Source of the DNA: Stentor roeselii
Taxonomy: Eukaryota; Ciliophora; Heterotrichea; Heterotrichida; Stentoridae
Direction: 5' to 3'
Length of the DNA: 64,000 nucleotides
Assembly (NCBI GenBank): GCA_006503475.1
Contig: RSEH01000025.1
Span: forward strand, 62,001 to 126,000
Part shown: in pieces, positions 27,210 to 34,130 of the stretch
Position numbering within the stretch: position 1 is the stretch's first letter
Layout: each line of letters begins with the position of its first letter
Notes under the pieces: generated by a model
Seen by the model: the letters and a program-made list of their open reading frames with translations, nothing else
What the model was told of the DNA's origin: nothing
The model's database searches: none
Translations under genes and position numbers: made by a program

Positions 27210-29018
27210 CTAACTGAAAAGCTGTTGATGAATATTTTGAGGAAGTTGGCTAGTCCCAAGTTTATTCCAAGCTTTCTTAACCCTCTTAAGTAATTTCTGA
27301 TCATTCGCATCAATAAGGCTGATAGTGATTTGAATAAGTAGCTCAAAATCTTTTTTCCTAACAGCATTGTTAATATCCTCTCTACCAAACTGATTTTCAA
27401 TGATTCCTTCCCTACTGCTTTCCATTTCTTCAAACTCCCTATAAAACTTGTTAATATCATATTCACTGTTCTTCTTATCCTTATACATCTCTCCAGTTTC
27501 GCCAGAGTTGAAAGGATTAGTTTGTCGTTCTCCTAAAAACAACTTCAAAACTCCAAGTTTCAACAAAATCCTTCTCTTAATCGGGTTAAACAAGATCTGT
27601 TCCTTCCACCTTCGATTAACGACCCTAACCAAAAGGCCGTAGTCTCTTTCAAGTTTAAAACTAGGCAGCAAGGTCTCATCTTCCACTTGTTCTCTCAAAA
27701 AGCTAAGAATATCAAGTTGTTCCATGACAGTGAACTGAAGAGGATGTTTTTCTTTCGAGAGTAGCTGATAATGATTCACAAGAATTTCTTCCATTTTAAC
27801 AATCGGCTCTTTTCTCACGAAATGAAAGTTGGTCATCGATTTTAAAGTCAATATCATCTTTTGACTGTTCCTCAAGTCATCAAGTAAGAATCGATATGCG
27901 ACTGCGAGTTGTTTAATGCTTTCGATGCCGACATCCCAGTTGAGTCTGAACATTGCGATCATTAAAATGATGATAAATCCCATAATCAAGCCAACTATGT
28001 TAATCACCATCAGGATGTTTACCAAGTTACTGTCAGCCATTGTCTGAGAATCGTATTTTGAAGCTTTTAAATAACCGATGAAATAGTTTGCAGTTATCAG
28101 CCACATGCAAAAGGCGTAGAAAAGACTGGAACTTAAGCAACGGTAGGATGGAAGAACTGTTATGTATAAGCTGAAAGTGCCGGAAATTATAACTAAAATC
28201 AGCATTTTATAGTCGTTGTCTTGGTTTAAAGCGCCGTGAATGATTACCATTGAAAGGACGAAGACGTAGTAGACGACCCGATGGTATACTCGTAAATAGG
28301 TGCTTCTGTAGGAACTAAATAGGTAAAGTTTTTCTGTGAGCCAAGCTGAACTTATACCTAGGAGATACTCCATTTCTTTTAGTCTAAGGAACTCCTCGTA
28401 TGCATCTGCATTTGTAGTGACCACCTTTTTAGTAACATGAACAATCAAATAAAACGGGTAAGCCACTAAATACCCCCCAATGACAGCCAACGTTAAAATC
28501 GAAACAACAATCTGACTTCCACTGGGCTGACAATCTCCATACTGACACAAAGCCGCAGGAATAGTTCCAAGAGCGACAGGAAGGTAAAAAATATGCACAA
28601 TTTTGAAGTAAATCCTCTGAAACTGCACTCGACTAAGCACAGAAAGATTGAAGACAAACCTAAAAAGCAAGTAAATGGATCCCATCGCTGCAGCAAACAT
28701 GATCCAAGCGCCCGAATAAATCAGTCGGTTTACCGAGTCGTCCATCACATCATCGAATAAGTAGGTCCCAATGTCAACCAACGACAGAATGCTCAGAAGC
28801 GACTCTTTATACATTCCTTGCCAGCGAAGAGGCCAAGACTCGTAGTTGCACGCGAACATAAAACTAAAAAGCTGAACTGTTTGAAAGGCGATGTTGATCT
28901 TTTCAGTCCAAAAATGAGAAATTGTGATCAGCTGACATTTACGCTGTTTCTGGCCGAAGTCGAAAAGTAACTTGTAGATCTCCAGTGATTCTTTATCTTT
29001 CGGTTTTGTTGCTGACAT
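27210..29018 (-). CDS. Polytopic membrane protein with cytosolic C-terminal region
   Basis: A 602-residue protein with about ten hydrophobic segments between residues 45 and 370 (TVQLFSFMFACNY, LLILVIISGTFSLYITVLPS, IVGLIMGFIIILMIAMF), followed by about 230 mostly helical, charged residues. The pattern resembles the membrane module at the end of giant Cys-rich ciliate surface proteins, but here it starts at MSATKPKDKESL without an extracellular part or signal peptide. Not otherwise recognised. It is convergent with the RCC1-like gene (24 bp gap). Confidence 0.8.
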   Translation of the reverse strand: MSATKPKDKESLEIYKLLFDFGQKQRKCQLITISHFWTEKINIAFQTVQLFSFMFACNYESWPLRWQGMYKESLLSILSLVDIGTYLFDDVMDDSVNRLIYSGAWIMFAAAMGSIYLLFRFVFNLSVLSRVQFQRIYFKIVHIFYLPVALGTIPAALCQYGDCQPSGSQIVVSILTLAVIGGYLVAYPFYLIVHVTKKVVTTNADAYEEFLRLKEMEYLLGISSAWLTEKLYLFSSYRSTYLRVYHRVVYYVFVLSMVIIHGALNQDNDYKMLILVIISGTFSLYITVLPSYRCLSSSLFYAFCMWLITANYFIGYLKASKYDSQTMADSNLVNILMVINIVGLIMGFIIILMIAMFRLNWDVGIESIKQLAVAYRFLLDDLRNSQKMILTLKSMTNFHFVRKEPIVKMEEILVNHYQLLSKEKHPLQFTVMEQLDILSFLREQVEDETLLPSFKLERDYGLLVRVVNRRWKEQILFNPIKRRILLKLGVLKLFLGERQTNPFNSGETGEMYKDKKNSEYDINKFYREFEEMESSREGIIENQFGREDINNAVRKKDFELLIQITISLIDANDQKLLKRVKKAWNKLGTSQLPQNIHQQLFS

Positions 29019-29302
29019 TTTTATTATTTGTGGGCTTTGAATGTTTTTACTTTGGATTAGTTAAGATGGGTTTCGTGTTGGTTTTAGTGATTTTTTATGG
29101 GGTTTCTTTTTAGGCTCGGTGGTGGATTTTAGGGAATGTTAGTGATTTTAATGTTGATAGAAATTTTTTATTGAAGTTTATTTTATGATTGGTGAATGGT
29201 GAGCATTTTCATTATTTGGCTATTGTTCTTGATTTCTGTTTTGGATATTTTTGAAGAAAATCTTTAACTATTTAAGATTATATTCATCGCTCTGTAACTA
29301 TT

Positions 29303-30283: not shown

Positions 30284-33200
30284 ATGTTAACCCAAGGGCA
30301 AAAGCTTCCATTTCCATCATGCGAAGTTCAAGTCTCAAGCCACTTGAAATCAACATCAACCTGTTCCTACTACAAAAGTTCATCAACCAGCAACTCATGG
30401 ATGTTAAAAGCGATTCCATCATCAACTCCTCACCTTCAAGAGCTTCAATTCCAAGAATTCACAAACACAAGACTAGTCGGTCCAGACGCTCACATAATTC
30501 CTTTACTCGACCAAGTAACCCTTTCATCATGCAAGGTCTTTTTATTCGAATACCAAGAAAACGGCAACTTAAAATCATTCTTAAAAAACAAGAAGCTGAC
30601 TGAAGACCAAGCTTTATTCATCTTCAAAGAAATCCTTCTGGCAGTGATAAAAGTCGGTGATAACGGAGTCGTTCATCGAGACATTCACGCTCGAAACGTG
30701 TGGATTGACAAGGACTTCAATTTCAAGTTAAGTGGTTTTGAAAGGTCTTTAAGAATAGATGACCCGAGACAGATCAACGTCAAGATGAACTGCTTGAAAC
30801 TCACTCACCCTGACATGCGCCCGCCTGACCTTGAAGAAGGTCTGGAGATTGGAAAAGTTGATGTTTGGGGCCTGGGGTGTTTTTTATTTTACCTTTTGTA
30901 TCGAAGCACTCCTTTTGCTGAAGGTGCAAATAATAACACCTCGGCTTTTGTTTTAGAAATACTTTCTGCGTGTTTACAACCGGACCCTGCTGAAAGGCCA
31001 TTGCCCAGGAAGGTGCTTAATATGATCAGCAATCGTGGAGTACCCAGCTGGAATCAGCTTGTTTCTGATACTGATCAACCTGCAAGTGCTTCGAAGTATT
31101 CGGCTTTTCATTGTGTTGATAATTTGATTAACGAGTCTACTGAACCTCCTGATTTGTTTTATTTGCAACAGGTTTCTTTTGATAATTGGACTCGACCTTC
31201 ACGTGTTCCTGATGTTTTTGATAGGCTTGGGAATAGATTGCAGGGAATTAGTGTTTGTGACTTGAAGGTTCTTATTGTTATTCATAGACTCATGCTTTCG
31301 GGACCACATGAAATTTTGTGTCCTGCTTTGGCTCAAGTCTTGGAAAAAGTACTGAAAATGTGGACGAATAATGTGAAAAATCAGAAAGATGCTTATTTTT
31401 GTGAATTTAATAATGGATTGATTAGACAGGTCACCAGGAATCTAATAGAAAAAGTCCGTTTTCACATGCGAACAAAAACCAGCTGTAACTGGAAAAGTCA
31501 AATACTTGCAAGTGACTTTCAAGAAATAATCTCATACCTAGCAAAAGTGGTAAGAATCTGTGAAGGTCTAACAATGGGAATGGACATTCTTCCTCAAATA
31601 AACAGTTTCCTAGCAATGCAACTAGTAGAAGAATGTCAACGTCTAATGATGTGCATAAAGCCTCTAGACCGAAACAACGACCTTCAATCATTCAACTCGC
31701 GTCTGACATCTTTATCCTTCGAGGCCCCAGCTCCAGTAAAGCGAGAAAAGTTCTCAACAGGAAGAATCGTGCTTGCAAGTCCCCGAAGCCAGCGTCCAAA
31801 CGACATGGACCTGTCATCATTCAAGCCAGGACCAAGCCTTTCAAGCTCTCCAAAACACTCAGACCTTCCAAGTCCTCCAATGATTCCTTCATCAAACTAC
31901 CCTCAACTACCGAACCTTATAATGCCCTCTCCTCGTTCTCAAGTCCCAGACGACACCCGCTTTAATCCCATAGAAATTTCTGAAAAATTCTCTAAAAGTG
32001 CAGTAAATTTTTCAATTAACTCCAAAGAAACACCTCCTCCAGTCCAGTCTGATTTATCTGACCTGATCGACCTGGACTTTCCAATCAAAGTTCAAGTGAA
32101 AAAAGCTGAAATCCAGAAATCTACACCTGTAAAAGAAGAAGTTTCAATGAATCTTTTAAGGAACAACTCGCCAGTCGTCAGTAAAGTCGATGTGAAATCC
32201 GCGAATATCCCTAAAGACCTGAAAGTAGAGGCTTTAGACCCAGTTCCTCAAAGACACATTCGAAACTCAAGCAGTGGAAGTCGAGAAAGTCGTGAATCAG
32301 TTCATCGCTCTGACGGAGCACCTGGAAAAAGACCTGCACTTCCAGCCTACCCCCAAGCGCGGGTTGGAGGTAATCAAATTCCAATCACTCCAGTTTTACT
32401 TCCTGCATTTGCGCCTCGTCCAGTTCGACAGAACCGCGAAGCGAAAGTTTTAGAAATTGATAAAAGGTGGATCATTGGAAAGACTGACATAAAACTCGGC
32501 CCGGTACTTGGCGAAGGTGCAAGTTGCACGGTTTATAAAGGAGAGTATAAAAGAACACCCGTCGCTGTCAAGATCATGATGGGCACTTATGCTGGGCAGA
32601 ACATTGTGCAGGAGTTTCAAAGGGAAGTCACTGCCATGATTTCTTTGAGACATCCAAATTTGGTGTTGTTTATGGGCGCCAGTGTCGACCCGCAGATGAT
32701 GATTGTCTCGGAATTCTGCAGAGGTGAATCGCTTTTCAAACTTTTACATGAAAAAAAACAGATTCATTTGTCGTGGAGTCAAAAGTTTAAAATGATTTTG
32801 GATATTGCTAGAGGAATGCTTTATCTTCATGAAGCACAACCACCTATTCTTCATCGTGATTTGAAAAGTTTGAATTTGTTGTTGATGGATGCTGTTACTG
32901 GAATTAATGATTTTATTTTGGTTAAAGTTACGGATTTTGGAATTGCGAGGATCTTGGATGAAGTTACTGCTAAGATGACCATGCAAGTCGGTACATGCCA
33001 CTGGATGGCTCCAGAGGTAATAAACAGCGAGCCCTACTCCTTAGCAGCAGACATCTATTCCTTCGGTATAGTCCTCTGGGAGATCGCAGCCCGTGAAACT
33101 CCATACAAAAACATAATGCCAATCGAGATCCCAGTGCGAGTTCTAAAAGGTGAAAGACCAGACCTAAACCAAATCGGTCCAGCAGTTCCAGGGCCCATAA

Positions 33201-33304
33201 AAGACCTAATCCGTCATTGTTGGGACCAAAACCCAAGATCCCGTCCTACATTCCGTCGAATAATCGAAGAACTAGAGCAAATTCAAGGACAAGTTGACTT
33301 TTAG
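30284..33304 (+). CDS. Two-kinase protein: NAK-like pseudokinase, ANTH-like domain, clathrin box, TKL (Raf-like) kinase
   Basis: 1006 residues. Residues about 10-250 look like a NAK/AAK1-type kinase fold: Lys42 and HRD (131-133) are kept, but the DFG motif is SGF (150-152) and the Gly loop is absent, so it is probably inactive. Residues about 305-455 resemble an ANTH domain (DRLGNRL...DLKVLIVIHRLMLSGP). A disordered Ser/Pro linker follows with a clathrin-box match LIDLD (594-598). Residues about 728-1000 are an intact TKL kinase: GEGASCTV, AVK (Lys763), HRDLKSLN (857), DFG (884-886), MAPE and WDQNPRSRPTF. NAK kinases and ANTH proteins both serve clathrin endocytosis; the fusion to a Raf-like kinase is unusual. 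A 15-mer at 33017-33031 mimics an intron but encodes the conserved VINSE after MAPE. Confidence 0.9.
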   Translation: MLTQGQKLPFPSCEVQVSSHLKSTSTCSYYKSSSTSNSWMLKAIPSSTPHLQELQFQEFTNTRLVGPDAHIIPLLDQVTLSSCKVFLFEYQENGNLKSFLKNKKLTEDQALFIFKEILLAVIKVGDNGVVHRDIHARNVWIDKDFNFKLSGFERSLRIDDPRQINVKMNCLKLTHPDMRPPDLEEGLEIGKVDVWGLGCFLFYLLYRSTPFAEGANNNTSAFVLEILSACLQPDPAERPLPRKVLNMISNRGVPSWNQLVSDTDQPASASKYSAFHCVDNLINESTEPPDLFYLQQVSFDNWTRPSRVPDVFDRLGNRLQGISVCDLKVLIVIHRLMLSGPHEILCPALAQVLEKVLKMWTNNVKNQKDAYFCEFNNGLIRQVTRNLIEKVRFHMRTKTSCNWKSQILASDFQEIISYLAKVVRICEGLTMGMDILPQINSFLAMQLVEECQRLMMCIKPLDRNNDLQSFNSRLTSLSFEAPAPVKREKFSTGRIVLASPRSQRPNDMDLSSFKPGPSLSSSPKHSDLPSPPMIPSSNYPQLPNLIMPSPRSQVPDDTRFNPIEISEKFSKSAVNFSINSKETPPPVQSDLSDLIDLDFPIKVQVKKAEIQKSTPVKEEVSMNLLRNNSPVVSKVDVKSANIPKDLKVEALDPVPQRHIRNSSSGSRESRESVHRSDGAPGKRPALPAYPQARVGGNQIPITPVLLPAFAPRPVRQNREAKVLEIDKRWIIGKTDIKLGPVLGEGASCTVYKGEYKRTPVAVKIMMGTYAGQNIVQEFQREVTAMISLRHPNLVLFMGASVDPQMMIVSEFCRGESLFKLLHEKKQIHLSWSQKFKMILDIARGMLYLHEAQPPILHRDLKSLNLLLMDAVTGINDFILVKVTDFGIARILDEVTAKMTMQVGTCHWMAPEVINSEPYSLAADIYSFGIVLWEIAARETPYKNIMPIEIPVRVLKGERPDLNQIGPAVPGPIKDLIRHCWDQNPRSRPTFRRIIEELEQIQGQVDF

Positions 33305-33317
33305 GTTATTTAAATAA

Positions 33318-34130
33318 ATGGTAAGTCCCAAATAGCCTCAAAACGAGTACATCGAGCTTTTCCAGAAACGCGAAGGAGAAAGATTTGACACTTCAGTCAA
33401 AAAGTAACACCCAGCCAGGCGCAAACGAGAAGCTCGAGAAGCTCATGAGACCTCGACCAAGGCTCAGAGTCTTCGAGGACTCAAGGCAAAGATCTTCAAC
33501 AAGCAGAAGTACACAGAAAAGGCTCATATGAGGAAACTTCTCAAGGCTCATGACGGGTCAGCTGTGAATACCACTGACAAGTCAGCAGTACCTGAAGGAG
33601 CTGTTCCAAGTTACCTACTTGACCGTGAAGGATCAAATAAGACGAAAGTCTTAAGCAACATGGTCAAACAGAAGAGAAAAGAAAAGGCTGGGAAATGGAG
33701 TGTCCCTATTCCTAAAGTCAAACCGATGACTGATGAGGAAATGTTTCAGGTTGTTAAAAGTGGAAAAAGGCAGAAGAAGGTATGGAAGAGGATTATTAAT
33801 AAAGCTTGCTTTGTTGGGGAAAATTTCGTGAGAAAGCCTCCGAAGATGGAAAGATATATCAGGCCTACTGGAATGAGATTTAAAAAAGCTCATGTGACTC
33901 ACCCTGAGTTGCAGACGACTTTTTACTTGGATATCATCGGGGTGAAAAAGAACCCACAGAGCAGTCTTTATACAACTTTAGGAGTCATTACAAGAGGAAC
34001 TGTCATTGAAGTCAATGTTTCTGACCTCGGACTTGTCACTCAAGGTGGAAAAGTCGTCTGGGGAAAGTACGCTCAGGTCACGAATAACCCGGAAAACGAC
34101 GGGTGTATCAATGCGGTCTTGTTAGTTTAG
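33318..34130 (+). CDS. NSA2: NSA2-like ribosome biogenesis factor, two 15-nt introns
   Basis: NSA2 (TINP1) acts in 60S pre-ribosome maturation in the nucleolus. Coding parts 33318-33320, 33336-33403 and 33419-34130 give 260 residues, the size of yeast NSA2. The first exon is only the ATG; the first intron (33321-33335) follows it directly. Splicing yields [19 protein letters not shown], then [11 protein letters not shown] and LRGLKAKIF, matching the near-invariant NSA2 N-terminus (MPQNEYIE...). The C-terminal part ([55 protein letters not shown]) is also highly conserved. An ATG at 33528 would miss the first exons. It starts 13 bp after the kinase stop. Confidence 0.96.
33321..33335 (+). other. 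Intron, 15 nt, immediately after the NSA2 start codon
   Basis: GTAAGTCCCAAATAG, A at position 10. Its removal converts M-stop to MPQNEYIE, the conserved NSA2 start. Confidence 0.96.
33404..33418 (+). other. Intron, 15 nt, in NSA2
   Basis: GTAACACCCAGCCAG, A at position 10. It holds an in-frame TAA; removal restores [11 protein letters not shown] of the family. Confidence 0.96.

Follow-up and report, generated by a model that had tools for sequence, protein, structure and literature searches.

Protein kinases of the NAK family (GAK, AAK1, BIKE and STK16), marked by a characteristic helix in the activation segment, ANTH proteins of the CALM/AP180 and Sla2/HIP1R types, whose canonical phosphatidylinositol 4,5-bisphosphate (PIP2) motif reads K-A-T...P-K-x-K-H, and kinases of the TKL group such as CTR1, TNNI3K, Raf and MLK are the described systems closest to the separate parts of the protein considered here, while its overall plan recalls the tandems of the JAK and GCN2 type, in which a pseudokinase stands N-terminal to an active kinase within one chain. 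The protein is encoded in a window of 64,000 nucleotides from the ciliate Stentor roeselii (assembly GCA_006503475.1, contig RSEH01000025.1, positions 62,001 to 126,000 of the forward strand; coordinates without a contig handle are positions in this window), and occupies 30284-33304 on the forward strand. As a preliminary description made from the letters alone had proposed, its parts belong to a single protein; it has 1006 residues and is read from an uninterrupted frame of 1006 codons without introns that ends with TAG at 33302-33304; the N termini of its paralogues align with its first methionine, and the opposite strand has many stops in the one frame translated. A degenerate NAK-like kinase domain, an ANTH-like domain, a linker and a TKL kinase domain follow one another in it, and the reading that we tentatively prefer, at somewhat less than an even chance, is that an adaptor module, in which a NAK-derived pseudokinase is combined with the ANTH-like domain, would place a Raf/CTR1-like kinase of the MAPKKK type, in a family expanded within the lineage.

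The order of domains, of which the preliminary description knew no described example, is not peculiar to one gene. Searches of the same assembly (44.4 Mb) with the window protein and its relatives, followed by reading of the frames, yielded at least 18 fused genes with the order first kinase, ANTH-like region and TKL kinase, namely that of the window (contig handle C170) and 17 others (C27, C511, C179, C69, C178, C515, three on C429, C116, two on C92 and five on C2), and at least two unfused relatives, C437 and C176, that have the kinase and the ANTH-like region and no TKL domain; the counts are lower bounds because the searches score best candidates only. C2c is spread over two overlapping frames, not joined here, one with the first domain and the other with the remainder. 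In a prokaryote sequence collection, the ANTH-like segment has no relative. Three family genes stand in tandem at C429:7990-16717 (L027, L035) and five, in two clusters, at C2:110080-143181 (L032, L044, L029), an arrangement that suggests local duplication. In the open-licence literature, as far as titles and the beginnings of abstracts go, no kinase-ANTH or pseudokinase-ANTH-TKL protein is described. A 2017 preprint by Reiff and Marshall on the Stentor kinome, whose title reportedly points to new domain architectures, may already list this order. The pseudokinase-ANTH-TKL order is therefore best read as a new, lineage-specific architecture, with that reservation about the preprint.

The C-terminal kinase is the clearest part of the protein. 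Residues 737-997 (32492-33274) form a complete kinase domain (E 1.5e-71, Pfam, whole protein) with the motifs GEGASCTV, VAVK, HRD (residues 857-859, 32852-32860), DFG (residues 884-886, 32933-32941) and APE all present. Its closest structures in the PDB are CTR1 (E 1.3e-51), TNNI3K (E 4.9e-45) and B-Raf (E 4.1e-44), MLK4 and Raf-1 also appear within the best 60 of 104 matches, and one row is named EGFR. With CTR1, TNNI3K, Raf and MLK kinases as its nearest solved structures, the earlier label of an intact Raf-like TKL kinase was right, and the domain is, by its motifs, very likely active. Both catalytic aspartates are kept in 15 of the 18 family TKL domains (17 read from the alignment table, that of C2e from its frame), the exceptions being C429a, without the HRD aspartate, and C2c and C2e, with degenerate TKL domains. 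Read by eye, both kinases of C2e (L044, C2:135264-137786) are degenerate, with HLN and GFN in the first domain and HMN and NYS in the TKL domain.

The N-terminal domain (residues ~18-250, 30335-31033) is a kinase by its Pfam Pkinase match (residues 25-224; E 1.8e-21 in a scan limited to residues 1-475), by phmmer matches to kinases in the PDB from E 4.8e-13 onwards, and by its position in the trees discussed below; its residues support a predicted pseudokinase whose Mg-binding aspartate has been replaced by glycine. At the DFG position, the alignment to paralogues places G151-F152-E153 (30734-30742) where the unfused C437 has D-F-G, so that the aspartate is lost as first described, although the triplet SGF then given in its place was one residue off. 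The loop that should carry glycines has none, again as described, yet the domain is less degenerate than had been thought, K42 on beta-3 (30407-30409), E58, H131-R132-D133 (30674-30682) and N138 all being present. The active catalytic core of a NAK kinase, with its glycine loop and DFG, is not found in it. Across the family (17 members from the alignment table; the frames of C176, C2c and C2e read by eye) the DFG aspartate occurs in one of 20 members, C437, and the HRD aspartate in two, the window protein and C437 (two of the 17 aligned); C176 is an unfused pseudokinase. By contrast, the alignment has the beta-3 lysine in 14 of 17 members, the alpha-C glutamate in 16 and one arginine in all 17, and the keeping of these residues while 19 of 20 members have lost the DFG aspartate suggests a fold retained after the loss of catalysis.

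The residues kept in the window protein are also what could be said for a dual kinase, in which its first domain would still be catalytic or bind nucleotide through a non-canonical metal site: among the 16 fused members tabulated, it alone has HRD together with the lysine, the glutamate and the catalytic-loop asparagine. With glycine in place of the DFG aspartate, a loop free of glycines and a nearest paralogue, C27, that also lacks the HRD aspartate, we hold this to be very improbable. The preliminary description had held that homologues with an intact DFG in the first domain would refute its proposal; there is one such among 20 members, and we read the DFG of C437 as a sign that the pseudokinase derives from a possibly active kinase-ANTH protein, the window's own domain not being made active thereby.

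That the first kinase fold is NAK-like, as proposed at the outset, is borne out by trees. The reference for them, L043, is taken as a NAK kinase because each of the 13 PDB matches that it has at E<=1e-20 belongs to GAK, AAK1, BIKE or STK16, and it is the genome's one clear member, its score against its own genome falling from 639 bits to 80 at the next best match. Among 32 kinase domains of the genome placed in one tree, six first domains, that of the window protein included, cluster with L043 at 100/97; with the first domains of the window and C27 only, set against 43 other rows, the link stays at 98/96, and C437 alone joins L043 at 93/85, a value not starred and accompanied by a program warning that long branches meet. 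The first of these trees uses six of the 20 members, and all have a single NAK reference. Several observations weigh against the kinship. It rests on long branches; no NAK kinase is found within the best 60 of 1471 PDB matches of the window's first domain (phmmer); the PDB matches listed for C437 mix GAK, BIKE and AAK1 with Aurora, PDK1 and MARK; and a profile of 17 first domains places GCN2, PLK and others ahead of AAK1. A NAK-related first domain is thus supported by tree, subject to the long branches and the one reference. The data disfavour a first domain copied from the TKL domain, p-AU (approximately unbiased test) being 0.02 when the six first domains are held with seven clear TKL domains; a p-AU of 1.2e-6 from an earlier constraint, which included L051 and L062, labelled TKL and lying among other kinases, is not relied on.

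The middle region (residues ~270-475, 31091-31708) was called ANTH-like in the preliminary description, with lipid and clathrin-coat binding in view, and the remote likeness is supported where lipid binding is not. Pfam ANTH matches residues 285-400 with 21.7 bits against a cut-off of 21.5 when residues 1-475 are scanned, and with 20.4 bits, under the cut-off, on the whole protein. In a six-frame search of the genome, the same model finds five places, all above the cut-off, which are two CALM-type proteins, C511 (26.4 bits), the window protein (23.3) and C27 (23.0). A profile of 17 family ANTH-like regions, compared with all PDB chains, gives seven matches up to E 10. Sla2 entries take the top three places (E 1e-4, 1.2e-4 and 0.32), a STAM2 chain comes fifth and the other three are unrelated; the VHS domain of STAM2 belongs to the same superfamily as ANTH. 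By Pfam and by family profile, then, the window's region does match ANTH, marginally.

Much else pulls the other way. Pfam ANTH reaches E<=0.01 in only three of 17 members, and the unfused C176 has no Pfam ANTH match at E<=0.001. The family profile has no significant match to the CALM-type ANTH of the same genome (hhalign probability 0.5%, E 0.11; hmmsearch E >=0.2), and phmmer with the window's segment alone against the PDB returns two weak, unrelated matches and no ANTH. Single-sequence AlphaFold2 models of residues 1-480 and 270-480 are all helical over the region's ~200 residues, with mean values of the predicted local distance difference test (pLDDT) of 35 and 38, which makes them models of no confidence. 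None of 20 family members has the canonical PIP2 motif, which the genome's two CALM-type ANTH proteins both carry. The weak scores, the lack of a significant match to CALM-type ANTH and the values of the two models would be in keeping with helices that built some other superhelix, whether VHS, HEAT or unrelated, and resembled ANTH by chance; ANTH nevertheless came first in two separate searches, that of the genome with Pfam ANTH and that of the PDB with the family profile, and we regard a chance likeness as unlikely. Judged from these profiles, the ANTH kinship of the middle region does appear to go beyond chance, but it is remote.

Between the ANTH-like region and the TKL kinase lies a linker (residues 476-721, 31709-32446) that is, by eye, of low complexity and rich in serine and proline. 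It contains the LIDLD noted earlier as a clathrin box, at residues 594-598 (32063-32077). The motif is where it was said to be and fits the strict version of the pattern L-phi-x-phi-[DE], which was applied in a strict and a loose form, but 3.3% of 1000 shuffled window linkers contain a strict box (8.6% a loose one). A strict box occurs in three of 18 linkers or tails (those of 17 fused genes and C437), with a pooled P of 0.015 for the strict and 0.103 for the loose pattern. One further strict match, at frame residue 484 of C2e, is excluded because it is taken to fall within the ANTH-like region or at its end. Against a meaningful box, two of the three box-bearing linkers come from the neighbouring paralogues C178 and C515; no box lies in the 42-residue linker of C27, the closest paralogue; and the motifs DPF/W, NPF and FxDxF are absent from all 18 linkers or tails, as well as from C2e and C176, scanned whole. 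The clathrin box is therefore weak as evidence, hardly beyond chance, and the earlier claim that every middle part pointed towards clathrin-coated membranes was too strong, since the box is weak and no member of the 20 has the PIP2 motif. The descent of the two domains makes a place at clathrin coats plausible, but none of the specific binding features is well supported.

In the reading that we prefer, the pseudokinase and the ANTH-like domain would form a protein-docking, placing unit, most likely an adaptor descended from a NAK-ANTH kinase like C437. This unit would recruit the TKL kinase to membrane-coat machinery, endocytic or otherwise, or to a cargo, receptor or actin linker found there, and would gate it, TKL activity being released or concentrated where the unit binds; the coat location, the gating by the pseudokinase and any substrate are parts that we infer. 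The same order of domains kept by 18 fused genes speaks for this reading. Its main alternative, which seems to us rather unlikely, is a tandem like that of JAK, in which the pseudokinase would bind and hold the TKL kinase in cis and the ANTH-like part, unconnected with clathrin coats, would serve mainly as a rigid helical spacer or as a platform for dimerisation or protein binding. A degenerate kinase does precede a TKL domain with both catalytic aspartates in 15 of 18 fused members, and the missing PIP2 motif, the absence of most endocytic short motifs and the strong divergence of the ANTH-like sequences (11-38% identity to that of the window protein) would all suit such an arrangement. Yet the first domain looks NAK-derived, the window's linker of ~246 residues loosens contact in cis, and the first domain is coupled to the ANTH-like domain even where there is no TKL kinase, in C437 and C176, which indicates that the pair has a role beyond gating it.

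A less orderly possibility is relaxed, lineage-specific duplication, with an N-terminal part that drifts and a TKL kinase that alone matters. N-terminal domains are less alike than TKL domains in four of the five pairs compared (between the window protein and C27, identity is 32% in the first, 38% in the ANTH-like and 60% in the TKL domain), and TKL degeneracy too, in C2c and C2e and in the lost HRD aspartate of C429a, fits drift. The fifth pair, the closest, does not: C92a and C92b share 71% of residues in the first domain, 51% in the ANTH-like and 58% in the TKL domain, so that the first is the most conserved, and their non-synonymous and synonymous rates (dN/dS by the Nei-Gojobori method, NG86) are 0.17/0.90, 0.32/1.04 and 0.28/0.96, a ratio of about 0.2 for the first domain and below 1 for all three, from which selection appears to have kept all three; the other four pairs are too diverged, dS being saturated or not computable in most domains. 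Since, in addition, a long open N-terminal region persists in 18 genes and the unfused C437 and C176 retain that part only, we think drift quite improbable.

The history of the fusion has more than one reading. The free tree of TKL domains needs three label changes for the family's, and holding 17 of them as one clade is not rejected (p-AU 0.54; C2e, a very long branch, omitted); the 21 rows labelled other in that tree were chosen as lower-scoring matches to the window protein, and 14 of them fall in one clade, which may not be TKL at all. In the N-terminal tree the unfused C176 lies amid fused genes, and a constraint that unites the 17 fused ones is a borderline case (p-AU 0.043). The two trees are compatible with a single fusion followed by loss of the TKL domain in C176, or with several fusions. 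A bolder version of the preferred reading, on balance doubtful, is that in a heterotrich ciliate an ancestral NAK-ANTH endocytic kinase resembling C437 became a catalytically dead coat adaptor, was fused to a Raf-like kinase and expanded to 18 genes, whose differing modules would direct TKL kinases to separate membrane locations across a giant, patterned cell. If the reading is true, clathrin-adaptor biology is joined to Raf-like kinase signalling within one polypeptide, and the family offers a natural series for the question of how a kinase turns into a scaffold, running from an unfused member with intact DFG through an unfused pseudokinase and fused pseudokinases to doubly degenerate members. 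Stentor would be a system in which that question could be addressed, and is described as a model of regeneration and cell patterning with a greatly expanded kinome (PMC9371601).

The surroundings of the gene look ordinary in the frames scanned with Pfam: one is RCC1-like, one of the S8e/NSA2 type, one a ubiquitin hydrolase and one a Myb protein, and two more have no match. The NSA2-like gene (33318-34130) has two introns of 15 nt, the first right behind the start codon (ATG|gtaagtcccaaatag|CCT), and a frame of 616 residues on the reverse strand (27213-29060), which appears by eye to span the membrane several times, matches no Pfam family at E<=0.001. TGA serves as stop in three of the 33 frames of at least 250 codons, which points to the standard code; for Stentor this code and introns of 15-16 nt are on record (PMC9505925). 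Elsewhere in the genome, L065 (C104), L066 (C123), L068 (C98) and the reverse strand of L003, beside the C511 family gene, combine by eye a Cys/His-rich, MYND-like start with an Aurora-like kinase; L065 has no Pfam MYND match at E<=0.001.

Set beside known systems, the family resembles each in part. Six of its first domains group with the genome's own NAK kinase, and the stretch CDFGSA of C437 resembles CDFGSC in L043, but the window protein lacks the DFG aspartate and the glycine loop of NAK kinases, the family is fused to ANTH-like and TKL domains, and PDB searches with single members place other kinases above or beside NAK. As in ANTH proteins, the middle region spans ~200 residues, drawn as helices throughout in models that carry no confidence, with the Sla2 ANTH at the top of the family profile search and Pfam ANTH at about its cut-off; unlike them, the family has no PIP2 motif (0/20), and its 18 linkers or tails differ from the tails of the CALM-type L036 and L037, which bear DPF/NPF motifs. 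The window's C-terminal domain is a complete TKL kinase like CTR1, TNNI3K, Raf and MLK, from which the family departs in having a pseudokinase and ANTH-like unit as its N-terminal regulatory module; three other TKL-like kinases of the genome bear, by eye, RCC1-like, ankyrin-like or leucine-rich repeats; L010 (C203:31360-32145 and upstream) is, also by eye, a TKL-like kinase fused to RCC1-like repeats. Like the JAK and GCN2 tandems, finally, the family sets a pseudokinase before a predicted active kinase in one chain, but its two kinase domains apparently come from different kinase groups (p-AU 0.02) and have an ANTH-like domain between them.

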